Source: a virus. Taken from it: DNA of 64,000 nucleotides. Where the stretch lies: positions 47,816 through 111,815 of IMG/VR virus record IMGVR_UViG_3300024308_000024. One strand, 5' to 3'. Under the pieces are notes generated by a model. That model saw nothing but the letters and a program-made list of their open reading frames with translations, searched no databases and was not told where the DNA came from. Every line of letters begins with the position of its first letter. Positions within the stretch are counted from its first letter, which is position 1. This document shows, one piece after another, positions 4,272-55,976 of the stretch. Made by a program: the position numbers and the translations under genes.

Positions 4272-5807
4272 ATGCCTTTGATCAACTACATGCTACCAGA
4301 GACGTACCAGAGCATCACCCGTCCTGTGGCAGTATCTATTTTAAAACAGGTGTTAGCCAATAGTGGTATACACGACCAAACCTTCGTGGGGTTCTTTGGA
4401 GACCAACAAGTCCTGCGTTTAACAAATTCAGGATGGTTAGAAGAAGGAGTAGGGCCTCAGTTTGACCAACGTCAAGCGGTGTTTGTGAAACACCAAGAGC
4501 TCGAGTACGAACCGACGTTGATCGCGCAGAACTCTACCACGAAAGATCAGAAGTATTTGTTCTTAGACACCGACTTAGGGATCGCTTACCGTCCCGTTAC
4601 GACCACGATGGAAGTGACGTTGTCCTTCACGTTCCGCTCTGAAGACAAACAAGACGCGGTACGTTGGAGAGACAACTTCGTAAGGCAGCTACGGAATAAC
4701 AAAGCACATCAGCTCCACAAAGTCAGTTACCAGTATCCATTCCCACCTGCAGCGTTTGCTACCCTTTTAGAGTTACATCGTTTACGGGAAACCAAACAAG
4801 GCTACGCAGAAGACTTCGGTGTGTACTGGAAGAACCACGCTGCACTAGAAAAGTTTACGTTTATTACCAAACTGGATGGTTCGGAAATGGAACCGTACGT
4901 GCAGGAAGACCAGATCAACGTACAAGGGTGGTTCCGTGATACCCTACCTAGTGAACCCAGTAAAACCACCGGTGCAACGTACGAAGCGACGTTTGACTTT
5001 GTGTTCCAGTACCAACGTCCGATTTCGATTATTGGGAAGATTCCTGTATTGGTGCATCAACAGCCCGTACCAGCGAAACTGTATGACCGTCTACCGAGTT
5101 ATAAACCAGAAGCTTTAGCGGATAAAGGATTTATTGACGAAATCCTTGACACACCACGGAGTTTCTCGTGGTTGACGAAAGACTACACGGTAGGGATCAC
5201 TATCCCTCATTACGACGATTGGTTACCGAAGTATCCAAACGCCAACTACTTGAACATCGTCACCTCGTTGCTGTTGATTAACCCAGACACCCCTCGTACG
5301 GTACTGACGTTAACTCAGTTGGGTGAGTACGAAATCGTTCCTGAGCTTTTAGAGTATCTAAAACAAGAACGTGCATTTTTGTTTGGTGCGAATAACTGTC
5401 CAGTACAGATTGAGATCTACGAAGGGGGTGTGCCCATTGACTACACCTACTTAAGTATGGACGAGAACTTCGTGATCACTTGCAGTCGTGACTTAGACCC
5501 ACGGTTAGAGTACCGGTTTCGGTTTAACGTCCTGTGGGGCTTAGACCTGCTAGACACACAGACCGAACTACGGTTTCGTCAAAACCCTCAGGTGTGTTTA
5601 AAGGTCTTACGCTGGGTGTATCCGCCTATGCAACCCCAAGGACTTACTCCTCGGGTGATCGCTAATCGCTTAGTAGAGAAAGAAGGGTACGACAAGGTCG
5701 TAGGACGACTACGCAAAATAGGTCAACAACGTGCAACCAGTTTTGAAGTCCGGTGGTGGATGTTCAATGAGTTACTAATTAAAACCCGCAGAGGACGTTT
5801 AGCATGA
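4272..5807 (+). CDS. Probable virion structural protein, 511 aa
   Basis: ATG 4272 follows CAGGGAGAC; the longer TTG start at 4251 lies in a poly-T tract and is rejected. The protein is soluble, beta-rich and rich in aromatic residues, with no enzyme motif. It heads four genes linked by 4-10-nt overlaps (5804, 7126, 7755), a layout typical of tail or baseplate blocks in large myoviruses. I infer a structural role from size, composition and context; the exact part (baseplate, tail or neck) cannot be told. The last bases ATGA hold both its stop and the next start. Confidence 0.6.
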   Translation: MPLINYMLPETYQSITRPVAVSILKQVLANSGIHDQTFVGFFGDQQVLRLTNSGWLEEGVGPQFDQRQAVFVKHQELEYEPTLIAQNSTTKDQKYLFLDTDLGIAYRPVTTTMEVTLSFTFRSEDKQDAVRWRDNFVRQLRNNKAHQLHKVSYQYPFPPAAFATLLELHRLRETKQGYAEDFGVYWKNHAALEKFTFITKLDGSEMEPYVQEDQINVQGWFRDTLPSEPSKTTGATYEATFDFVFQYQRPISIIGKIPVLVHQQPVPAKLYDRLPSYKPEALADKGFIDEILDTPRSFSWLTKDYTVGITIPHYDDWLPKYPNANYLNIVTSLLLINPDTPRTVLTLTQLGEYEIVPELLEYLKQERAFLFGANNCPVQIEIYEGGVPIDYTYLSMDENFVITCSRDLDPRLEYRFRFNVLWGLDLLDTQTELRFRQNPQVCLKVLRWVYPPMQPQGLTPRVIANRLVEKEGYDKVVGRLRKIGQQRATSFEVRWWMFNELLIKTRRGRLA

Positions 5808-7126
5808 GTTTCTTTACCGATGACACCACACCTCCACAAACCCCTGTGGACTTAGTGACTCAACCCTACCGAGGGATTACCAACGACACGCGGTTAATCC
5901 CAACGACCGATTTACTCACACACGTCAAAGGCTCCAAGTGGGTAGTTACGTACTACAGTCAGGTGTTAGGGGTAGACAGTGAGCCTACAGCGTACTCACC
6001 CAGTATCCCTCCTGCACTCCAGCAGTACGTGCGAATCCGTGAGTTTGAGTTTAAAGTCACGACACCTATTGAGCCTCAGTCCTTAACTGAAAACGCTGAG
6101 TTCAAAGTCGAAGGGACCGCGTTTGTATTTCCGCACGTGGTACCCAACGTAGGGGATATGTTTATCGCCCCAGTCCGTCCGGGACAGCTTGGGTTCTTTA
6201 CGCTAACGTCAGCTGAGCCGAAGTCGATCTTCCAGCAACCTGCGTATGAAATCCGTTACGAGTTACGTTCCTTACTGGACGACGTCACGTCACGAGATCT
6301 TGAAAAGAAAGTCACTAAGGACGTGATCTACGTTCGTGATTTCTTACGTGTGGGTAGAAACCCAATGTTAGTCGAGTCGGAGTACGCACAGTACCAGACG
6401 TTACTGACTCTACAGCAGACGTTGATCAACCAGTACTTTGAACAAAACTACGTGCATGAGTTTGAAGCGTTCTTGGTTCCTGACCAAGACACTACCACGT
6501 ACGATCCTTACGTCGTAGACTTTATCTCCCACCTGGTTCCGAAAGACCGCTATCGGTTCTACCAGAAAGCGGAACAGCTGGTGTGCGATGACGTGAACTC
6601 AGCAACAGTCACGACACTATTTGACGTTCTACTCAAAGGAGACACGAAGCAGCTGGTGCGGTGTCGTCGTGATTTTGCGTTACTGCCTACAAAGACGGTA
6701 TTCCAACCTCCTTTGTACAGAACCATTCGCTACAGTGGGATTGACCTTGTGGTGAAGTCTGCTCAAGACCACCCCAACGCCACACGTCCGATTAACTGGA
6801 TAGGTACCCCACCTACGATCCAATCGTTCAGTGCTCAAATCAGCACCACAGAGCTTTCAGGGCTCTTACACACACAAAGTAGTGTGTCTGTACCCCTATG
6901 GCCTCTAGAGCCCGCCTACGTCGTTTCTGAGGCGTTCTACAGGGACTACGTTGCTACGTGTGTACTAGAGCAAGAACTCAAAGCGGTGTTAGACAATCAA
7001 ACCCCTCAGCTCGCCAGGGTATTAACCTTAGCACGCGATCTTGACAACCTCAGTGAAGTACAGCGGTTTTACTTTACTCCTTTAGTGTTGTTTTTAAGCG
7101 TGTATGCTTTAGGAGCGATTAACTAA
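5804..7126 (+). CDS. Probable virion structural protein, 440 aa
   Basis: The start ATG overlaps the previous stop (ATGA at 5804-5807), giving translational coupling, and the gene ends in the same way against the next. The product is beta-rich and has no signal peptide, membrane segment or catalytic motif that I can see. Its N-terminus is rich in T, P and Q. Second of four coupled genes; structural role inferred from the block it belongs to. Confidence 0.6.
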   Translation: MSFFTDDTTPPQTPVDLVTQPYRGITNDTRLIPTTDLLTHVKGSKWVVTYYSQVLGVDSEPTAYSPSIPPALQQYVRIREFEFKVTTPIEPQSLTENAEFKVEGTAFVFPHVVPNVGDMFIAPVRPGQLGFFTLTSAEPKSIFQQPAYEIRYELRSLLDDVTSRDLEKKVTKDVIYVRDFLRVGRNPMLVESEYAQYQTLLTLQQTLINQYFEQNYVHEFEAFLVPDQDTTTYDPYVVDFISHLVPKDRYRFYQKAEQLVCDDVNSATVTTLFDVLLKGDTKQLVRCRRDFALLPTKTVFQPPLYRTIRYSGIDLVVKSAQDHPNATRPINWIGTPPTIQSFSAQISTTELSGLLHTQSSVSVPLWPLEPAYVVSEAFYRDYVATCVLEQELKAVLDNQTPQLARVLTLARDLDNLSEVQRFYFTPLVLFLSVYALGAIN

Positions 7127-7764
7127 TGCGTACGTATCCTTCTTTGGAGGCTACCCCTATCTGGAAGTTGTTTAACTACTTCTGGTGGGTACAAGCTCCA
7201 CAAGTCCACTTACTGACTGATCACCACATCCAGTTGTACGGAACTCCCACCAGTGGGGACTTAAAACACGACGAAGCAGCTTTAAAGCAAATGGTGTTGT
7301 GTCAGCTCCCTGCGGTACGAGACCCAGAACAAACTCCACAGATCAAATCGATTCTAGAGTTGATCTTGGATGGCGTTCCAGTGCAGTTCGAGAAACCCCA
7401 AGAAATCGCAAAGTTGTACGACTTACTGGTCGAACACGTCCAAGTCCTCGCGGAGTACTTTAGTGAGTCGATGTTTTTCAGCCAACGTGCCATTCAAGCG
7501 TCTCCTGAGAAACAACGTGTCTTACAAGACGCGAGTGACTTACAAGAGTTTATCAACGCACTCCACCCTGTGGTAGAGCGATGGCGACCTGAGCCTGTGG
7601 CTCCTCCCTCTGACTTCTTGCAGATGTTGGAGTATTGGAGACACGGTGTGGGCACAAACCCACTCTTTGAACGTGAGCAGAAAACCTACACCAACGAAGC
7701 CCCTGACGTGTTTAACGCAGCACTCAGTGGTTTAGGTCGGGAGAGGGTACGCGCATGGCGTTAA
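7126..7764 (+). CDS. Probable virion-associated protein, 212 aa
   Basis: Third gene of the coupled block; it begins on the stop codon of its predecessor and overlaps the next gene by 10 nt. The product looks largely helical, with a tryptophan-rich N-terminus (W-K-L-F-N-Y-F-W-W-V near residues 13-22). No family recognised. Its smaller size and helical character suggest a connector or adaptor among the beta-rich neighbours, which is a guess. Confidence 0.55.
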   Translation: MRTYPSLEATPIWKLFNYFWWVQAPQVHLLTDHHIQLYGTPTSGDLKHDEAALKQMVLCQLPAVRDPEQTPQIKSILELILDGVPVQFEKPQEIAKLYDLLVEHVQVLAEYFSESMFFSQRAIQASPEKQRVLQDASDLQEFINALHPVVERWRPEPVAPPSDFLQMLEYWRHGVGTNPLFEREQKTYTNEAPDVFNAALSGLGRERVRAWR

Positions 7765-9095
7765 AACCGATGTTTTACACCGAGGCAGTACGGCAAATCC
7801 AACGTGCCCCTCGGCCTGTGTTTGTACAACTGACGGCTGAGTTTCGAGTCCCCAAAGGAAAGTTCTCTCCATGGAAGGTAGTAAACTTTGACCAAGAGAA
7901 AGACTTTGTCAAAGGGTTTATGGAAACAAGCTTTCTGGAAGTCTTAATGGTGTTAGAACAATACCGTCAATACGTGTACCCACACAGAAACGACTTAAAG
8001 GTAGATTTGAAACGGATTGTCGTCGGTGAACTACAGGGAGGGATCATCAAGTCCCTCCCACCTACGCTGCGTACTTACCGTGCTGTCCTTTTAGAGAACA
8101 CAGACCCTGGACTCTTAGGACAGAACAGTATGTCAGGTCTTGCACAAGTCAGCGGGACTCAGACCTTTGTCAACGTAAAGTTTCAGTTGATTCCAATAGA
8201 GTTTGATAAACTGCAATACGTTCGTTTTGGTGGACCTTACGTCAACTCCACACCAGGAGATTTACTCAAGTGTTTACTCACCCAAGCGATCAGCCAAACC
8301 AAAGGGTTAGAGAACGAGCGATTAAAGGGGTTGGAGTTTGTGACGCCTGATAACAAAACCGTCAGGAAACAGATCAACATCCAACACGGTGTAGAGCTTT
8401 ATAACCTACCAGGGTATCTACAGAAACATGGGGGAGGGATCTACAACAACGACATCGGTATTTTTTCACACCGACAGTTATTGTATGTATATCCGTTGTA
8501 TGACACGACGCGATACAACAAAAGTAAATATGCCGTGGACTTTTATATCATCCCACGCAACCAGGTGATCACCGAACGAACCTACGACGTAAAGAACGAT
8601 CGAGTGACTGTTGTAATTACTGGGGCAGTAAAGCATTTTGACTTTAGTGACCAAAAACAAACCTCAGAAGGCAATGGTGCAATGTTTAGCGTTGCCACCA
8701 AACAGTTTAATGAGTTTGTGAAAGTCGAGAACGGAGTGGGTGTTTTACAGCCCGATAAAACCGCAGCGACAGTACAAGTCCAGGAGCGTGAGTCTAAACT
8801 CAACAACGCTCCGATGCTTCAGCGTCGTGTGACGGACAACATCGCACGAGAGCTTTCTAAACTCTCAGCGCGTAAAGGTCAACTGGCACATTTCGTATGG
8901 AATGATGCAGACCCTGAGTTGTTAGTCCCCGGTATGCCCATGCGTATTTTCTATCAAGGCCCACAAGGCTTAGTAGAAGGCTACGGCACAGTCCTTGGGG
9001 TAGAGGCATATACCGCGTTAGAACGTCCTGGGTTTACCACAGAGACGTACCAAACCACGGCTTCGGTCATGGTGTATTTTATCCCAAAAACTTAA
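7755..9095 (+). CDS. Probable virion structural protein, 446 aa
   Basis: Last of the coupled block 4272-9095. ATG 7755 lies inside the end of the previous gene with GGGAGAGGG just upstream. The protein is mixed alpha/beta and soluble; residues 270-340 hold several long beta-like stretches. No catalytic motif seen. The 13-bp hairpin at 9106 closes the operon. Structural role is inferred from context. Confidence 0.6.
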   Translation: MALKPMFYTEAVRQIQRAPRPVFVQLTAEFRVPKGKFSPWKVVNFDQEKDFVKGFMETSFLEVLMVLEQYRQYVYPHRNDLKVDLKRIVVGELQGGIIKSLPPTLRTYRAVLLENTDPGLLGQNSMSGLAQVSGTQTFVNVKFQLIPIEFDKLQYVRFGGPYVNSTPGDLLKCLLTQAISQTKGLENERLKGLEFVTPDNKTVRKQINIQHGVELYNLPGYLQKHGGGIYNNDIGIFSHRQLLYVYPLYDTTRYNKSKYAVDFYIIPRNQVITERTYDVKNDRVTVVITGAVKHFDFSDQKQTSEGNGAMFSVATKQFNEFVKVENGVGVLQPDKTAATVQVQERESKLNNAPMLQRRVTDNIARELSKLSARKGQLAHFVWNDADPELLVPGMPMRIFYQGPQGLVEGYGTVLGVEAYTALERPGFTTETYQTTASVMVYFIPKT

Positions 9096-9105
9096 CCGAC
9101 ATAAA

Positions 9106-9136
9106 GCTACTCTAGGGCGCAGTGCCCTAGAGTAGC
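9106..9136 (+). terminator. Strong hairpin, probable terminator
   Basis: A perfect 13-bp stem (GCTACTCTAGGGC / GCCCTAGAGTAGC, loop GCAGT) after the structural operon. There is no U-tract; the next promoter element begins only a few bases later, so it may be a factor-dependent terminator or a 3'-end stabiliser. Confidence 0.65.
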
Positions 9137-9141
9137 CTGAC

Positions 9142-9192
9142 TCGAATCTTTTATAGATATTTAATATAAAGTTGATATGACGCTTGACGTCA
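9142..9192 (+). promoter_or_regulatory. Phage promoter with leader hairpin
   Basis: TCGAA at 9142-9146 followed by TTTTATAGATATTTAATAT at 9149-9167, one base off the main consensus. Downstream TGACG (9178-9182) and CGTCA (9188-9192) form a leader hairpin. It would drive the gene at 9235 and probably the small gene and structured RNA beyond. Confidence 0.75.
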
Positions 9193-9234
9193 GATCCCTA
9201 GGAATTTTCCACCCAGCCAACAGGAGCAAACACC

Positions 9235-9477
9235 ATGGCAACCTTAGTAAGACCCAACGTAGAAGTCCACCTGAAACAATTAGGTGAAGTCGGTATCCCA
9301 GACGGTTTCGTCGTAGTAAAATCCGGCGAACAAACCGTAAAAGTTGCATACGAGTTAGTAGGTGACGTTCCAGAAGAGTTAGATGCGCAATTTATCCGTG
9401 ACATCCAAACTGCTCTGAATGTTGAATTACTAGCCCGCAACTTTCCACAGGCACAACGTGTCTACGTGGGAGCGTGA
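9235..9477 (+). CDS. Small hypothetical protein, 80 aa
   Basis: ATG 9235 follows AACAGGAGCAAACACC, a good ribosome site. The 80-residue product is acidic and mixed alpha/beta, without cysteines or membrane segments. It stands alone behind a phage promoter, with a terminator hairpin folded over its own stop codon (9466-9485). This arrangement and its favoured codons suggest high expression; function unknown. Confidence 0.8.
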   Translation: MATLVRPNVEVHLKQLGEVGIPDGFVVVKSGEQTVKVAYELVGDVPEELDAQFIRDIQTALNVELLARNFPQAQRVYVGA

Positions 9478-9489
9478 GCTCCCACTTTT
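9466..9489 (+). terminator. Terminator overlapping a stop codon
   Basis: GTGGGAGC (9466-9473) pairs with GCTCCCAC (9478-9485), loop GTGA, then TTTTATGCC. The stop codon of the preceding gene lies in the loop, so ribosomes finishing translation would compete with hairpin formation. Confidence 0.8.
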
Positions 9490-9545
9490 ATGCCGCTGTA
9501 GAACATTCCCCCATTCCCCCACTCAACTTTTAGGACACATCCACC

Positions 9546-9632
9546 ATGCAAGAACCCCAAACTGTTCAGTTAGCGATCAATGGTAAAACGTACGTTTTCA
9601 CAGTGTACGCGATTAATACCAAACCTCGCTAA
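9546..9632 (+). CDS. Possible 28-aa peptide
   Basis: An open frame of 28 codons from ATG 9546 after TTTTAGGACACATCC. The product (M-Q-E-P-Q-T-V-Q-L-A-I-N-G-K-T-Y-V-F-T-V) reads like a short two-strand beta element and uses codons typical of this genome. Too short for any family assignment; it could be a real micropeptide or chance. Confidence 0.4.
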   Translation: MQEPQTVQLAINGKTYVFTVYAINTKPR

Positions 9633-9707
9633 CCACCTCGTTTGCGTAGCTGCACTCTGACGAGTGTATCTACACGAGCGTTCGTGCTCGAACATCCGAA
9701 GGGAGTT

Positions 9708-10096
9708 TAAGGTATGAAAGATGCGGCAATTTGGCTACTCTCCTTTACAGGAGACAGCAAGAGCTCTCCGGCTTTGGTAAACAAGGAATACTGCTTGTCC
9801 GCGCAGCGGCCAACCGGTGGTTTCCGGCCCACGCAGTCCCCAAGATTACTGCGTCATGTAAGAGTCCCGAAAAGTCCTCCACACGCGTCTCGTTTGCGTG
9901 CCACACGAACAGTCGGCGTAATAAAGGTGAGCGCAGCCTTCCAACCTGCCTTGTCACTGACTTCTAGTCGTCTTCCAAGACACCGCGACGGCGGCATGAC
10001 TAAAAGTCACACAACACCTAAACCTACGCTAACGAATGATCGTAGAAATACTCACCCATGTTCGTCCGTAGACCCGTGTTAACCTTTCATACCTTA
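9708..10096 (+). ncRNA. Large structured RNA with 13-bp terminal helix
   Basis: The ends pair perfectly: TAAGGTATGAAAG (9708-9720) with CTTTCATACCTTA (10084-10096). Inside are many local helices: TCTCC/GGAGA, ACGCAGT/ACTGCGT, CACGC/GCGTG, GTCTT/AAGAC, TGACT/AGTCA, CTACG/CGTAG, AACC/GGTT within GGCC/GGCC, plus a long-range ACGAACA/TGTTCGT helix. A terminator with a UUCG loop (10101-10141) follows at once. A 122-codon ORF over the same bases has an odd composition and looks accidental. I see no RNase P, tmRNA or tRNA core motifs. Large ornate phage RNAs such as GOLLD and ROOL are known; membership is untested. Flanks upstream (9634-9705) also hold small hairpins. Strand is inferred from the terminator polarity. 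Confidence 0.6.
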
Positions 10097-10100
10097 CTTA

Positions 10101-10141
10101 GCATAGAGGAGGCCTTCGGGCCTCCTCTATGCACTTTTTTT
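10101..10141 (+). terminator. Intrinsic terminator of the structured RNA
   Basis: A 14-bp stem GCATAGAGGAGGCC / GGCCTCCTCTATGC with a TTCG loop and a run of seven T. The T-run is on the plus-strand side only, so it ends rightward transcription. The minus-strand gene at 10162 also converges on it. Confidence 0.92.
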
Positions 10142-10161
10142 GCTTCATTTCTTTTTTTGTA

Positions 10162-10554
10162 TTACGCGCTGTACCAGAGTAAAAAACTCCAGTAGGGTAA
10201 ATACAGCCAGATTGCTTTACTGCGTACAAATCCTTGCAAGACCTTGGTGATGTCCATGTGTTCTTTATACAGAAGTTTTCCTCTAAGTACAGAGACTCGC
10301 TTGAAATGTACTTCAAGGACCCAGAGTATAAACTCCAATAACGCAACAGTAGCGACGGCGTATAACCACTGCTCTAAAAGCACAGGGGTTTGACGACAGA
10401 GCGTATACGCTAAGATACACGCTGACCAAATCGCTGTAAGGTGTCCTGTGACGTTGAGTTGTCTTGACGCAATTCGATGCTCGTGTTTATTCCAGTAATA
10501 GATAAGCACGAGGATACTTTTAAGGAGTATCCCCCACAGATAGTAGTCGATCAT
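10162..10554 (-). CDS. Membrane protein, 130 aa
   Basis: Read leftward from ATG 10554, which overlaps the helicase stop codon (ATGA), so it is coupled to helicase translation; the longer start at 10566 is less likely. The product has three to four hydrophobic stretches (about residues 5-20, 35-55, 60-80 and near the C-terminus) separated by basic loops. No family recognised. A membrane protein directly behind a replicative helicase is unusual; whether they act together is unknown. Confidence 0.7.
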   Translation of the reverse strand: MIDYYLWGILLKSILVLIYYWNKHEHRIASRQLNVTGHLTAIWSACILAYTLCRQTPVLLEQWLYAVATVALLEFILWVLEVHFKRVSVLRGKLLYKEHMDITKVLQGFVRSKAIWLYLPYWSFLLWYSA

Positions 10555-12478
10555 GCTGCAAACCACTCACCGCCATCCCCGTGTAGGTTAGCGCCCCCTG
10601 GACGAGACATACTGGTATCACGACCATGGATGTCATCTCGTATACCACCTACAGGCTCAAACGGAAGTACGGTATACAGATCTGTCTCAGGTGTCATGCG
10701 GGTGCCTAAGCCACGGTGTTTCCCACGTTGTACCGTTAAGTAACTCCGACCATCGAGTTTCACGATATGGATCAACATTTCCATATCGACTTCTTGGTCG
10801 ATCGTTTTACAGGAGTCCCAGTAGCCTTTGTTGGCGATTTCTTTCACGAAGTCATCTACACCATTCCTCAACAAGTACTTCGCCTCTGTGCTGATCTGAG
10901 CCGGTGTCATGACCGCTATTCTTCTCTTTTATGTTCGGAGAGGTTCGTGAGACCTCTCCCGCGTCTTACGCTTCACAGCGTGGGTACGCAGCTGTAGGCT
11001 TTCCCTACAGAACAGACTATATCATTTCATCCTCTACTCTTAGTAGAATAGGAGGAGCTCTCCACTTGGGACTCACTTGAGTCCTACTCCCAGCTACGGG
11101 ATAGTCGTTGAACCTTTCCCCGCGTCTCAAGGACGGGAGGGGACTTGGCTGCTACAGGAGACCTTAGGTCTCACGGTTGCCCATTGTACATCCGTTTCGT
11201 TTTCAAACCGTGGCTTTGGCTTTCGCCTCGCAGTGGTGAAACAGCTTTAGGGGTTTCCAGCAGTTCAGAGAGGTTTCATTAAAACCTTACGGCTTTAACG
11301 CCCTGTAATTAAGGAGCACAAAAGTTTCTTACACGTCTAAATAGGTCACGCACGTCTTGCCCTTGGGCACCAGCCGTACAACCTTTTTTACTGAACATGT
11401 TCAGGTAGTCAATCGTCAGTAGGTGTATCTCGTATCCTTCTGCTTCTAGTTTCAGAATCAACGTAAAGAGTTCTGGGTAACCAAAGTCAGAGGGGTTTAC
11501 ACGTACGTGGTGGAAGTGGTATCCGTTCACGCCTAAACGTCGCTTCACATAGGACGTCATCTCCTCGTAGGAGACCCTAGTCAAGTCCGCTGGTTGCTGT
11601 GTTTCATTCTCTACTAAAGAAGAGTACAAAAACGTCATGTTGTCTGTCGTAGCGTTTTCAGCGGCTACAACAAGTATCAGTGGCTTCTTCTTCGGGTCGA
11701 TCATGTACGGTGTGTTATACAAAGCAACTTGTTTAGTGAGGTTCAGAACCATCCCTGATTTGTAGTTGTGTTGCAGCGCACCGATTAAGTAAAAGTCGCC
11801 TCGCCTCAGACCGCCGTGCCAACCGAACATCCGAGTCAGCCCCTGCCAGCCTACTTTCAGAATACCCTCAGAAGACGACTCCTCCTGAGCTTTCTTAAAC
11901 AAGTCCTGCATTTTCTCTTCGTCAGAAATATCGACATAGTCGACAATCCCTGAAATTCCGTCTATTAAAGCTCCCTCGCGGTGATACACGTAGTGCTCTA
12001 ACTGTTCGATCATTTCTGCTGCGGCTGAAGCGATGTCGATCTGCTCGCCTGAGTACGCGTGTTTGGCGTAGAACCCTTTGACTTGTTTTTGAAACTTCCG
12101 TAAGTTCACAAAGTCAGAAAGTTCCTGTGCGTATAAAAAGCAACGTTTTTGAATCTCAATGCCTTCTAAGCCATCTGCTAAACCATTAGCAAATGCGTCG
12201 TAGATCGAATTTTGATCACGACAGATAATCCTTACTCGTTGCAGGAGTGTACCAAGGTTCATCGCACCTTGGTCGGGTTTGTTGATATACTGCAGCACTA
12301 AACCACGTAACCCCACGACGATCTCTCGTGTACGATCCCCATCGATGTTCTGATCTGGGATAGGGACTTCTTCTAACACGTTGCTAAGCAATTGTATGGA
12401 CCCGCCGGACGTGTGTTGTAAACGGCTTTCCCAGTAGGCTAGAGATAAAGCCTGCACCAGAATCATGGTAGCGTCCAT
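10551..12478 (-). CDS. DnaB-like replicative helicase, split by an intron
   Basis: Two exons on the minus strand: 12478-11312 (389 codons) and 10925-10551. Without splicing the first frame stops right after its P codon. Joining them gives about 513 aa, a normal size for this family. Exon 1 carries the RecA-type core: a non-canonical P-loop G-A-L-Q-H-N-Y-K-S-G and a Walker-B-like L-L-T-I-D-Y-L-N-M-F. Exon 2 supplies the conserved M-T-P-A-Q-I-S-T-E-A-K block, the I-D-Q-E-V-D motif and the final Q-R-G-K-H-R. The enzyme should unwind the phage replication fork. ATG 12478 follows CAGGAGTTACG. The junction chosen keeps phase and yields N-F-C-A-P-R-R-I-A-V-M-T-P; it is inferred, not proven. Confidence 0.9.
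10926..11311 (-). ncRNA. Group I intron, ORF-less, in the helicase gene
   Basis: All four conserved core elements occur in the right order on the minus strand: P (GAACTGCTGGAAACCCCTAA, 11266-11244), Q (AATGGGCAACCGTGAGACC, 11185-11167), R (GGTTCAACGACTATCCC, 11114-11098) and S (GATATAGTC, 11023-11015); R and S pair through GACTA/TAGTC as P7. The intron begins after an exon T and is placed to end on G at 10926, which restores the helicase frame. It is 386 nt, the size of minimal self-splicing phage introns, and has no room for a homing endonuclease. The exact 3' splice site could shift by a few bases. Confidence 0.93.
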
Positions 12479-12529
12479 CGTAACTCCTGTTGTTAATTAA
12501 CCATAAACCTTTTAAAAGCGGATTTCACT

Positions 12530-13075
12530 ATGATGCAAAATCCCGTGACTCGTTACGTCGCTTTAATCCCAGAGTGGTTTAAAGAACTAGCGACGTCTAG
12601 ACAAATACCAGTCAGTGACTTTACGAACCTCTCGTTACTGGAGGACAAATTATCTGTACAGGACGTATGTTTTTACGTCGCATACCACAATCGCCGTGAA
12701 CGGTATTTGAAAGGGCTAACGGGCGCTTTTAAAAGTTTTACCGACCACCCACAAAACGATGCGTGGTTAACCAAACATCGCAGCAAGCTACAAGCTGCAG
12801 AAGCAGAGTTCGATACAGCAGTGGCTGTAGCAGAACGGAGTGGGGTGGAGCTGAGTGAGATCTCAGTCCCCGTTACAGTACGTAGAACATCCTATGTACC
12901 GTGCTGCGTCTCTGACGAAACCATCGCCTTTATGGGCGTGGGGAGTTGGATTCAGTTTGAACAAAGTGCGTTCTTAGAACAAACCTTGATTGAGCTGAAT
13001 AAAATGATGACGCACCGGGAGCTGGAACAGTCAGAAATGTTCAAACTTTTCTGTGCGCTGGAACAAACGCATTAA
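12530..13075 (+). CDS. Hypothetical protein, 181 aa
   Basis: Divergent from the helicase, with 51 bases between the two starts and none of the common phage promoter motif there. Begins ATG-ATG at 12530/12533. The product looks mainly helical with a helical hairpin around residues 70-110; no motif recognised. It lies just upstream of the major capsid gene, so a head-related role is conceivable but unsupported. Confidence 0.7.
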   Translation: MMQNPVTRYVALIPEWFKELATSRQIPVSDFTNLSLLEDKLSVQDVCFYVAYHNRRERYLKGLTGAFKSFTDHPQNDAWLTKHRSKLQAAEAEFDTAVAVAERSGVELSEISVPVTVRRTSYVPCCVSDETIAFMGVGSWIQFEQSAFLEQTLIELNKMMTHRELEQSEMFKLFCALEQTH

Positions 13076-13120
13076 TCATTTGAGTGCTTCTGGCGGCCCC
13101 GGTGTCGTCGGTAGTATGAA

Positions 13121-13134
13121 TCTTAACGTTAAGA
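13121..13134. other. Perfect 14-bp palindrome before the capsid gene
   Basis: TCTTAACGTTAAGA is self-complementary and lies 20 bases before the capsid start, just ahead of its AAAGGAAGG ribosome site. It could be a protein-binding site or a small leader hairpin. No copy of the common phage promoter is present upstream of this highly expressed gene. Confidence 0.4.
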
Positions 13135-13153
13135 GTAAAGGAAGGCATCGACT

Positions 13154-15298
13154 ATGTCAAAGTTCGCATTAGGCCAATCGGCCGGTACGTTTGTAGGTAA
13201 TCTGCAAACACAAGTAAAAGCAGCACTGGCTCGCCAAGCTGCAGATTCTGCCGTAGGCCAAAAGATTCTGTCCGCAGAGTCTCTGAGCTTCCAGGATACC
13301 CAAGCATTAAAAGGTACGTTCAGTTCTGTGAATAACGAACTGGAAGGTGCGTTGAAAACTGCTTTCGAAAACAGTAAAATCGATCTGACTGGCAACAAAG
13401 CTGCGTTAGAGCGTTTAAGCTTAGGTTTAGAAGCCGCTACAGTCGTTGCGTTAGCACGTAACAACTTAAACAGCTGGGGTTCGAAAGCGGGTGTTCCTTC
13501 TGTACAGTGGACTCCAAACGCTCAGAACGGTGAGATGTTATTCCAACCGAATTTCTCTCAGGAAGCTTTCGACCGTACCAACGCTCAAAACTACATTGAG
13601 CAGACCATCACGTGGAACGTACTGTCTGCCCGTCAGGACGATTTCGCTGAAGCGTTTTTCCCAACGATCGTTGCTACTCCTGACCAATCGATCTTCATGG
13701 TGCAAGTAGACCGTACGTTAGTGTACCCAGGCTACAAACACGTGAACGGTGGTGCTGAAGCTGACTTCAACCGTAAGTCTCTGTTAGATGCAGTGGTAAA
13801 CCCTGACATCCTGAAAAACAACATCACTGACCTGGTGCCGTACAAAAACCCAGACAACAGTCAGAACGCTTATTTCTCTGCAGTAGCTGGTTTAGCCTCT
13901 ACTCGTGCCGTGGGTTCTGTCAACGTTCCTACTGCTCCGCTGGTGTTTGATAAGTCAATCGGTCTGTTAGGTCTGTCTGCTCACCCAACGCTGCTGAGCA
14001 ACAACGTGTTCACTGAGCAAGATGCCATTGACCCAGCTGCGAAAGTAGTAGGTGCTTGGTTGAAAGTGACCAAAGCCACTGACGAAAGCTACGTGTTCGT
14101 TGATCTACGTAATGCTCCAGGCACTCAGTTCTTCAAAACGCCAGAAGGCGATTGGAGAGAGATGTTACTGAACATGAACGTCGACACAGTAACGTTCAGT
14201 TCTGCAACCAAAGACATCGCTGGTGCTGTGGTTCCTGCGTTTGCTGCATTCACTGGTAAAGTACAAGTGCGTCTGCGCTTCAAAGGTGATCTGAACGTTC
14301 AGTCAGGTAACCTGTACATGTCAGGTCAGGTGGAAATCGTTCGCGTATTCGACGCTAACGGTAACAACATCGGTACTGGCGCAGCTGACGTGACTGGTGT
14401 AACGTTCGAATTAGATAGCTTTGAGTTGTCAGCTCGTCGTACCAACAGCAACTACCGCAGCCGTGGTATCCTGGTGGAACAAAACATCCGTCGTGAAGGT
14501 TACACCATCCCAGTACACGCTCCAGTGCACTACACCAAGCCAGTAAACGCCGACGCGTCTTACGATGCTTCTGTGAACACGGAGTCACTGATCAACACCA
14601 CTCGCGTACAAACGAACAACGCTGCTGTACAGCAACTGCTGGACAACGCGTCTCTGATTCGTTCTGCGTATGAAGCGTACCAGGACACTGGTATCGTTCC
14701 AAAAGTGGAAGGTTTAGGTCGTGAGTTAGTGAAGCCTTACTACCGTTACATCAACGTGAAAATGTCTGAAGTGTTAAACAGCGTTCGTTCTCAGGACAAG
14801 CTGGCTGACATCCAAGGTTATTTCACCACGTTGATCGGTCAGGCTGTTGCTGAAGCAATGACTGTGTCTGGTTACTGGGCAGCCGTGTCAGCAATGACTG
14901 GCGGTGTAGAACAGAAACCAACCGTCGTAATGGGTACAGATACTACATTACCACAATACCTGATGGTACAAGGTGATGACCGTACTGTAGGTCCTCTGCT
15001 GAAACCAGAAGTGGTTTCTACCAACAACCGTTTAATGCGCGGTAAGATCATGATCGCCCTGCGTTTAACTGATGGTGCTGAGTACCACCCACTGAACTAC
15101 GGTAACCACATTTGGATTCCTGAGTTAGTCGGTGAAATCCAGATGATCCGCGATGGTTCATTAGCGATGGAAGTAGGCGTACAACGTCGTAACCGTCACA
15201 TCCTGAACTGCCCAGTGCAGATCGAGATCGACGTAGAAGAACTGGAACTGATCACCTCTGGTGCAGTCGAGTTCATCAACAACCCAGTAACGCCATAA
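13154..15298 (+). CDS. Major capsid protein (phiKZ-type, 714 aa)
   Basis: Forms the icosahedral head shell. The assignment rests on length (phiKZ-type capsid proteins are about 750 aa), strong codon bias towards one codon per residue, a strong ribosome site, its own terminator, and the segment F-F-P-T-I-V-A-T-P-D-Q followed by V-x-R-x-L-V-Y-P-G and F-N-R-K-S-L-L-D-A (about residues 175-220), which reads like the N-arm and early HK97-fold region of large-phage capsid proteins. The first 150 residues are helical and may be a propeptide removed on maturation. The portal 7.5 kb downstream fits a head module. I am fairly sure of the role; family match needs a search. Confidence 0.85.
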   Translation: MSKFALGQSAGTFVGNLQTQVKAALARQAADSAVGQKILSAESLSFQDTQALKGTFSSVNNELEGALKTAFENSKIDLTGNKAALERLSLGLEAATVVALARNNLNSWGSKAGVPSVQWTPNAQNGEMLFQPNFSQEAFDRTNAQNYIEQTITWNVLSARQDDFAEAFFPTIVATPDQSIFMVQVDRTLVYPGYKHVNGGAEADFNRKSLLDAVVNPDILKNNITDLVPYKNPDNSQNAYFSAVAGLASTRAVGSVNVPTAPLVFDKSIGLLGLSAHPTLLSNNVFTEQDAIDPAAKVVGAWLKVTKATDESYVFVDLRNAPGTQFFKTPEGDWREMLLNMNVDTVTFSSATKDIAGAVVPAFAAFTGKVQVRLRFKGDLNVQSGNLYMSGQVEIVRVFDANGNNIGTGAADVTGVTFELDSFELSARRTNSNYRSRGILVEQNIRREGYTIPVHAPVHYTKPVNADASYDASVNTESLINTTRVQTNNAAVQQLLDNASLIRSAYEAYQDTGIVPKVEGLGRELVKPYYRYINVKMSEVLNSVRSQDKLADIQGYFTTLIGQAVAEAMTVSGYWAAVSAMTGGVEQKPTVVMGTDTTLPQYLMVQGDDRTVGPLLKPEVVSTNNRLMRGKIMIALRLTDGAEYHPLNYGNHIWIPELVGEIQMIRDGSLAMEVGVQRRNRHILNCPVQIEIDVEELELITSGAVEFINNPVTP

Positions 15299-15320
15299 GC
15301 GCCATTGTGGAATACCCTTT

Positions 15321-15350
15321 AGAAGGAGAGCTTCGTGCTCTCCTTCTATG
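15321..15350 (+). terminator. Terminator after the capsid gene
   Basis: AGAAGGAGAGC (15321-15331) pairs with GCTCTCCTTCT (15337-15347) around TTCGT, followed by ATGCCG. It isolates the capsid transcript from the next unit. Confidence 0.85.
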
Positions 15351-15355
15351 CCGTG

Positions 15356-15382
15356 TCGAATCCATTACAGATATATATTATT
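15356..15382 (+). promoter_or_regulatory. Variant phage promoter
   Basis: TCGAA at 15356-15360, then ATTACAGATATATATTATT (15364-15382), a divergent copy of the recurring promoter block. It has the same placement after a terminator and TATGCCG. Confidence 0.55.
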
Positions 15383-15394
15383 TTTTTGAGTAAT

Positions 15395-15511
15395 CTACGA
15401 TCATTCAGCCTCGCAACTCCCTAAACCGTGGAACGTTTAGAAGTCGCTTGGTTGAATTGGTCACGCGGGGTGACCCGAGCTTTTAGGTAGCGTCCAACTA
15501 AGGTCGCTTAG
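15395..15511 (+). promoter_or_regulatory. Structured leader RNA
   Basis: Between the promoter and the gene at 15575 lie about 190 non-coding bases that fold well: ATTCAGCC (15403-15410) pairs with GGTTGAAT (15450-15457) around the inner hairpin CTAAAC/GTTTAG (15421-15440); GGTCAC/GTGACC forms 15459-15475; CTAC (15395) can pair with GTAG (15486), closing a branched fold; CTAAG/CTTAG forms 15498-15511. This may be a regulatory leader of the downstream gene or a separate small RNA. Confidence 0.5.
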
Positions 15512-15574
15512 TACAGCGTTTTCCCATTAGCTTCGTTCTTTTCAAAAGAGACTGTAAAAGGATTCAGTGGTATC

Positions 15575-33017: not shown

Positions 33018-33069
33018 TCGAATTTTTTATAGGTATTTAATATCACGGTGAAGCGCGATAGACATCGCG
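33018..33069 (+). promoter_or_regulatory. Phage promoter with leader hairpin
   Basis: TCGAA (33018-33022), then TTTTATAGGTATTTAATAT (33025-33043). Downstream CGCGAT (33054-33059) pairs with ATCGCG (33064-33069). Confidence 0.78.
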
Positions 33070-55457: not shown

Positions 55458-55558
55458 CACACACCTCGCTCACTACTCTTTGTATCAAAGAATAGTTATT
55501 TTTTACACTGAGTCTACGTATACTATGTAGTCACTGACTACTGCCTCTTTCCAGCAAT

Positions 55559-55577
55559 GGGAGGGGTTGGGGTGGGG
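55559..55577 (+). other. G-quadruplex motif
   Basis: GGGAGGGGTTGGGGTGGGG: four G-runs with loops of 1, 2 and 1 base, the tightest canonical form, followed by CTTTTT. It lies in the divergent non-coding region and stands out in a genome of medium G+C. Confidence 0.7.
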
Positions 55578-55590
55578 CTTTTTGTGTGTG

Positions 55591-55609
55591 TAACTATTAG
55601 TTAATATAG
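55591..55609 (+). promoter_or_regulatory. Possible variant phage promoter
   Basis: TAACTATTAGTTAATATAG resembles the recurring block (TATAG-x-TATTTAATAT) but lacks an upstream TCGAA. It would start a transcript running through the hairpin array. Confidence 0.35.
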
Positions 55610-55619
55610 TAGAGAGAAT

Positions 55620-55903
55620 AGAGAGATAAGGTATAGAGGAATGAACGTAGTGAATGACTTCCTTATCCTCTCTATGAACGATATCCTTATTCCCTGTATC
55701 TACAGATACAGGAGAGAGAACTGTCTGTCATAATACAGACAGTATCCTTCAGTAGTGTGAGTGTCCAGACACTCACCATCCCTATCCCTAGAGAGAGGTA
55801 GTACTCTCTCTAGACAGACAGGAGTAGCGTGGGTGCTTACACCCACTACCCTTCTCCTAAGACGAGAGTCCAGTAGCTAAGAGGGAGGGGACACACCCCT
55901 CCC
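55620..55903 (+). other. Array of seven consecutive hairpins, possible ncRNA or origin
   Basis: Non-coding stretch holding, in order: AGAGAGATAAGG / CCTTATCCTCTCT (55620-55673), CCTGTATC / GATACAGG (55693-55712), ACTGTCTGT / ACAGACAGT (55720-55743), GTGAGTGTC / GACACTCAC (55757-55776), CTAGAGAGAG / CTCTCTCTAG (55788-55813), GTGGGTG / CACCCAC (55829-55846) and GGGAGGGG / CCCCTCCC (55883-55903). The stems differ in sequence, so it is not a simple tandem repeat. The last, followed by GTCTATGCGG, may be a terminator. The rest of 55458-55976 has no gene: a CTTTG/CAAAG hairpin at 55478-55490, the G4 and promoters. Confidence 0.75.
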
Positions 55904-55914
55904 GTCTATGCGGT

Positions 55915-55976
55915 CTGGAAAGAATTACAGGTATTTAATATACAGGTAGAGACAATCAATCAAAGGTATACGTACC
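55915..55976 (+). promoter_or_regulatory. Phage promoter variant
   Basis: AATTACAGGTATTTAATAT at 55923-55941, with TGGAA in place of TCGAA upstream. The leader hairpin GGTA/TACC (55965-55976) overlaps the ribosome site of the gene at 55977. Confidence 0.68.

Follow-up and report, generated by a model that had tools for sequence, protein, structure and literature searches.

A candidate non-coding RNA tail, closed by a 13-bp helix, at the end of a small predicted transcript unit in a phiKZ-like jumbo phage

The non-coding RNAs of phiKZ-like jumbo phages have hardly been charted. The Grad-seq study of phiKZ, in its passages on such transcripts, names two non-coding RNA candidates, and describes an abundant non-coding RNA of about 100 nt that derives from the 3' UTR of gene PHIKZ298, has no mapped start of its own, folds into two stem-loops, of which the second is possibly a terminator, and is seen on Northern blots (PMC8545117). 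The phiKZ RNAs are mentioned in a 2026 review, in the part that concerns them (PMC13282480). Elsewhere the role of non-coding RNAs in phage-host interactions is treated only generally, in the sections that take up the subject (PMC12571901), and a word search of PMC10914614 returned no passage on it. The larger GOLLD and ROOL RNAs are of phage or prophage origin, hundreds of nucleotides long and extensively paired by prediction; the relevant sections of PMC12286853 place them often near tRNA islands and give many GOLLD members a length above 800 nt. Here we describe a much longer candidate than the PHIKZ298 RNA, an element of 389 nt; no description of it was recognized among the literature matches listed.

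The element lies in a window of 64,000 nucleotides, the whole stretch of DNA analyzed, to which all coordinates refer. Neighboring proteins match PHROG families for a virion structural protein, the major head protein, and a DnaB-like helicase, and identify the source as a phiKZ-like jumbo phage. Among the best 40 of 272 records, its protein relatives are mostly phages of Pseudomonas, Erwinia, Salmonella, Vibrio, Serratia, Aeromonas, and Klebsiella, 218–322 kb in length. The same phage is present in IMG/VR as a record of 233,377 bases, with one mismatch in 12,246 aligned bases; there is none across 5554–14000, so the element is identical in this copy. By our own gene calls, 215 of the 250 genes of the phage lie on the strand equal to the window's + strand. 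Cumulative GC skew has no extreme at the locus, and a reading of the element as a replication origin was dropped on that ground.

Our best single reading, a tentative one, makes the element part of a non-coding 3' tail on the + strand (9633 to ~10141) of a p80–p28 transcript that would yield a processed, helix-capped RNA (Table 1). A scan with the 17-base promoter motif, allowing up to two mismatches, gave 11 sites in the 233-kb copy, all on the window's + strand; there were no sites on the other strand, and none for the motif read backwards as a control. Five sites are exact. The site upstream of p80, 67 bases from its start, is one of them and was also one of the three seeds of the motif; the exact sites at 1229, 28592, and 33027 were not seeds. 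Because so many genes already lie on the + strand, the strand bias of the motif is only supportive and weak evidence alone. In the five relatives searched the motif occurs once, in G002. Between 9168 and 10160 of the + strand it does not recur (best score 7.2 against a cut-off of 16.7), and a scan for sigma-70-type promoters across 9000–11000 found no site, which leaves a free-standing RNA gene unsupported. A motif upstream, and none from there to 10160, instead places the element at the end of a unit made up of promoter, p80, p28, tail, and terminator. The terminator-like hairpin over the p80 stop codon could stop part of the transcripts early. The structure model of p80 (pLDDT 55.6) was too poor for a search, and p28 has no significant relatives (one match, at E 8).

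Table 1. Features of the predicted transcript unit and its 3' tail (window coordinates)
Feature	Position	Strand	Basis
Phage promoter-like motif TTATAGATATTTAATAT (consensus TTAYAGRTATWTAATAT)	9151–9167	+	exact site, motif scan
p80, small protein gene, first after promoter	9235–9477	+	codon score 0.35
Terminator-like hairpin over p80 stop codon	9466–9485	+	
p28, 28-codon frame with coding-like codon use	9546–9632	+	codon score 0.263
Two upstream hairpins (9640–9679, 9680–9693), part of the same non-coding tail	9640–9693	+	well-predicted
389-nt non-coding domain closed by 13-bp helix	9708–10096	+	folding, shuffles
5' arm of terminal helix, TAAGGTATGAAAG	9708–9720	+	sequence
ORF122, 122-codon open frame, judged not coding	9714–10082	+	codon statistics, single-sequence fold
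3' arm of terminal helix, CTTTCATACCTTA	10084–10096	+	sequence
Terminator hairpin: stem 10101–10132 (14 bp), T tract 10135–10141	10101–10141	+	

The earlier note had described a C-rich RNA whose ends pair perfectly over 13 bp, followed within 10 bases by a strong terminator, and these features are borne out. The two arms are exact complements, the terminator stem starts 4 nt after the 3' arm, and the 389 nt contain 115 C and 86 G. When the local 615-nt stretch 9486–10100 was shuffled, a perfect repeat of at least 13 with a spacing of at least 100 arose in 13 of 10,000 shuffles. When all 30 phage gaps of at least 220 nt were shuffled as a set, 17 of 300 rounds gave at least one such helix, a chance of about 6% that one occurs anywhere in the longer non-coding gaps of the phage; both frequencies leave out the placement of the helix beside a terminator, which adds weight. 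Among 43 perfect repeats of at least 11 (spacing 150–800) in the 233-kb phage, the terminal helix alone has both arms in non-coding DNA, again by our own gene calls. The end-to-end geometry of helix and terminator is real. The sequence makes it plausible that the + strand yields an RNA closed by this helix and the terminator. The main rival of a 3'-tail RNA, and a serious one, is an inert spacer: the region separating the structural operon from the helicase would have held an accessory gene that decayed or was replaced, its inverted repeat would have arisen by chance, and it would have no RNA function. We hold this to be a substantial possibility, though short of probable. The phage-wide chance of such a helix speaks for it, and p28 could be a truncated frame; the local rarity of the helix and its end only 4 nt from the terminator count against it.

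Folding bears on both readings. As a whole, the 389 nt reach −121.7 kcal/mol against a mean of −102.2 for dinucleotide shuffles (z −3.65), and none of 100 shuffles was as good (1 of 100 in a second run). Once the terminal helix is removed, the z of the remaining 363 nt is only −1.39, a fold that 11 of 100 shuffles equal (8 of 100 and 2 of 60 in repeat runs); the excess over shuffles is mostly due to the terminal helix. The claim of a structured 389-nt RNA thus stands for the whole, whereas the interior is unexceptional, with a stability near random, as an inert spacer would have it. The proposed boundaries are incomplete as well, as well-predicted hairpins continue upstream. These hairpins are strong (9640–9695, z −4.44), which speaks against an inert spacer. 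Extending the fold to 9633–10140, terminator included, gives a z of −6.89, and 9633–10096, terminator excluded, folds better than all of 100 shuffles. The tail from 9486 to 10097 has a z of −3.55 (60 shuffles). Among 26 other phage gaps, 10 of the 52 strands have a z at least this low (20 shuffles per gap strand), a comparison that leaves out the 4 of 30 gaps longer than 800 nt, the element's own among them. Since two 200-nt windows inside the element are also no better than shuffles (from 9701, z 0.02; from 9801, z 2.28), stability alone does not distinguish the element. In the longer context 9486–10140, the pairs of the terminal helix form with a probability of only 0.51–0.62.

A functional RNA might instead come from the minus strand, by read-through from the helicase side, since that strand folds at −144.2 kcal/mol against −121.7 for the + strand. 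The minus-strand shuffles are also more stable, however (mean −127.7 against −102.2), so composition explains most of the difference, and the minus-strand z of −3.03 is no better. Ensemble diversity over the 389 nt is higher on the minus strand (0.270) than on the + strand (0.168), a + strand value matched by 16 of 100 shuffles. The minus strand carries no promoter motif across 9101–10160 (best score 4.6 against the cut-off of 16.7), and in its direction no run of T comes after the terminator stem. Given its z, its ensemble diversity, and the absence of a promoter motif in that range, we rejected the minus strand, which we consider very improbable as the source of a functional RNA.

An open frame, ORF122, runs nearly from arm to arm, with its start codon within the 5' arm and the sequence AGGGAG 8 nt 5' of the ATG. 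Its product would be very basic (calculated pI 11.3). These properties would suit a real foreign gene whose start codon is regulated by the arms, but codon use argues otherwise. With log-odds trained on long genes, ORF122 scores −0.18 and the ORF78 frame −0.28, both far from p80 and p28 (Table 1). The 110 accepted genes of 60–200 codons have a mean of 0.20 and a minimum of 0.06, the latter partly built in because a score of this kind had served to select these genes. Training on the window alone gave averages of 0.24 for the 34 training genes and −0.12 (sd 0.17) for 32 nested spurious frames, and ORF122, at −0.175, sits near the latter. Similar low-scoring frames (at most 4.0 bits in sum) of 120–198 codons are the best frames of four other gaps. 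ORF122 has no Pfam match, its sole PHROG match covers 16 residues at E 0.033, and its single-sequence structure model shows no confident fold (pLDDT 49.8). A search of 84,980 genomes returned 71 stretches and no relatives, and in the record search nine records matched, the best at E 2 and none significantly. We therefore regard a foreign gene as quite unlikely. In all likelihood ORF122 is no gene, and the stretch probably codes for no protein, in agreement with the earlier note, whose non-coding claim gains support from the codon use, the lack of a Pfam match, and the low pLDDT.

A 3' tail of the p80–p28 transcript suggests the following course of events. Transcription would start at the phage promoter and pass through p80 and p28 into the tail; the motif, the two genes, the lack of a further motif, and the terminator are what the sequence itself shows. 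The last ~390 nt would fold during or after transcription, and the 13-bp helix would join both ends directly before the terminator. Double-stranded ends would protect the piece from exonucleases, so that an RNA of ~390–500 nt, or a stabilized mRNA 3' end, could accumulate through processing rather than from a promoter of its own. As a phage RNA derived from a UTR, it would most likely serve to protect or regulate transcripts. One speculative contact is the CCUCC at 9876–9880 (mean unpaired probability 0.78), which could pair with Shine-Dalgarno sequences. The main value of the element at present lies in a precise transcript model and in the phage promoter motif.

The PHIKZ298 RNA is the closest counterpart. 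As described in the passages cited above, it comes from a phage of a related kind, forms a non-coding mRNA 3' tail, has no mapped start of its own, and ends in a stem that is possibly a terminator (PMC8545117); this likeness is one of description. The two differ in size and in kind of evidence, as the element would measure 390–500 nt and is predicted only, against a Northern-blot RNA of about 100 nt (PMC8545117). What marks a phage 3'-UTR-derived RNA is visible here in the sequence alone: a tail after a coding gene, no promoter motif of its own, and a 3' terminator.

Searches for relatives led back to the same phage, and this second copy, being identical, offers no covariation. At E ≤10, blastn against 50,697 phage records gave 59 records, of which the best 20 each cover only 5–7% of the query; 14 of these 20 fall on the terminator stem and 6 on window 9782–9809 at E 5. 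At E ≤0.01 one phage record remained, on the terminator stem only, and a plasmid search gave one chance match (E 0.5). IMG/VR was searched with the frames of ORF122 and ORF78, with the spaced pair of arms, and with one hairpin 20-mer; the same phage alone came back, from pattern searches that reach close relatives only. Of 11 whole-record loci, one of them the same phage, seven gave matches at E ≤10, and the same phage alone was convincing (best other E 0.037). The non-coding gaps of five genomes yielded a best match in another genome of E 0.35, and 26 IMG/VR loci (L087–L112) a best E of 7.9. By eye, the non-coding gaps that follow this structural gene in L087, L089, L100, L102, L107, and L112 bear no resemblance to the element. 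Also by eye, L087 and L089 share blocks with each other in a similar non-coding stretch after the structural gene (~7540–7833), possibly another conserved phage RNA.

In L005, L013, L014, L015, and Eowyn, the slot between the structural gene and the helicase is taken up by small frames or genes that differ from one relative to another. In L005, which encodes a putative p80 homologue (21% identity), no comparable RNA was found in the slot. Both observations speak for an inert spacer. The slot has the look of an accessory hotspot, and this lineage seems to have acquired the element or to have evolved it anew. Traces of a gene were not found by tblastx (lowest E 0.38 among relatives and 0.14 within the phage's own genome), a result against an inert spacer but one of little power, since the known remote G002 homologue of the p80 control was absent from the best 12 matches.

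None of the 4227 covariance models of Rfam 15 gave a credible match to the element at E up to 10; two sub-threshold chance matches lie near it, one of them on the terminator. The GOLLD and ROOL profiles of PMC12286853, according to the part that describes them, were taken from Rfam and should thus be among the families searched. The earlier note had seen no RNase P, tmRNA, or tRNA core and had suggested a GOLLD- or ROOL-like RNA, or a new class. The first point is confirmed by the absence of any Rfam match, RNase P RNA included, and of any ARAGORN match; membership in GOLLD or ROOL is unsupported by the Rfam 15 search. A free-standing large ornate RNA, distant from these families yet of the same kind and perhaps oligomeric, is unlikely. 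It would account for a phage-borne element of several hundred nucleotides with a long closing helix and a terminator after it, and in origin, length, and extensive predicted pairing the element does resemble GOLLD and ROOL as the cited sections present them (PMC12286853). Unlike them it has no covariance-model match and no tRNA island, and it is shorter than many GOLLD members. We found no tRNA gene in the window or in 12 pieces of the 233-kb copy, the element has no promoter motif of its own, and a single lineage carries it in the searches run. That restriction to one lineage also leaves a new RNA class unsupported. The version of it in which a 390–500-nt RNA, known so far from one jumbo phage lineage, is freed from the 3' end of a short mRNA, has its own two ends capped by the helix that joins them, and acts in trans on phage or host messages strikes us as improbable.

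Other structured or mobile elements fit no better. Retron RNAs are closed by terminal repeats; reverse transcriptase (PF00078) gave no match in the one record of the 233-kb copy, against 3 of 14 records for the control, and TnpB (PF07282), which would point to a guide RNA, gave none in the same record, with 6 of 14 for its control. The ends read TA-AGGTATGAAAG ... CTTTCATACCT-TA, as would those of a small non-autonomous transposon that has terminal repeats of 11 bp and duplicates a TA target, but TA at both ends is automatic for any palindrome that starts with TA. The 11-bp end is exact only at the two arms in the 233-kb phage (two more places at one mismatch), and the sole IMG/VR contig with ends 340–370 bases apart is the same phage. 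A transposon is hardly credible, and a MITE was rejected as the element is a single copy in one phage. The nearest structured phage RNA is the group I intron of the neighboring DnaB gene (RF00028), about 1 kb away, and the gap that holds it is similarly stable (z −3.45 and −3.66 on the two strands). Unlike the intron, the element shows no group I core (RF00028 is absent from 9500–10160 and occurs within 8700–11500 only at 10992–11321 minus), does not resemble the phage's group I-like gaps, and interrupts no recognized gene.

The group I intron itself (~10911–11315 minus) splits the DnaB helicase gene into exons at 12478–11309 and 10910–10551. Its RF00028 match scores 47.2 bits, just below the gathering score of 50, and the two exon matches abut in 11 relatives (L005–L015). 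Five other gaps of the phage resemble this intron or one another in sequence, one of them above the Rfam threshold. A frame of 134 codons at 10162–10566 on the minus strand is rich in hydrophobic residues, scores neutral in codon use, and has no match in the 50,697 phage records. Apart from the site at 9151, the promoter motif occurs on the + strand of the window at 1229, 15365 (one mismatch), 28592, 33027, and 55925. A leader of ~280 nt follows the site at 33027, and behind the major head protein gene the stretch 15299–15574 combines a hairpin, the promoter motif, and a structured leader. A dense array of near-perfect hairpins occupies the non-coding stretch 55461–55976, with a promoter motif near its end and a + strand z of about −11 (20 shuffles).
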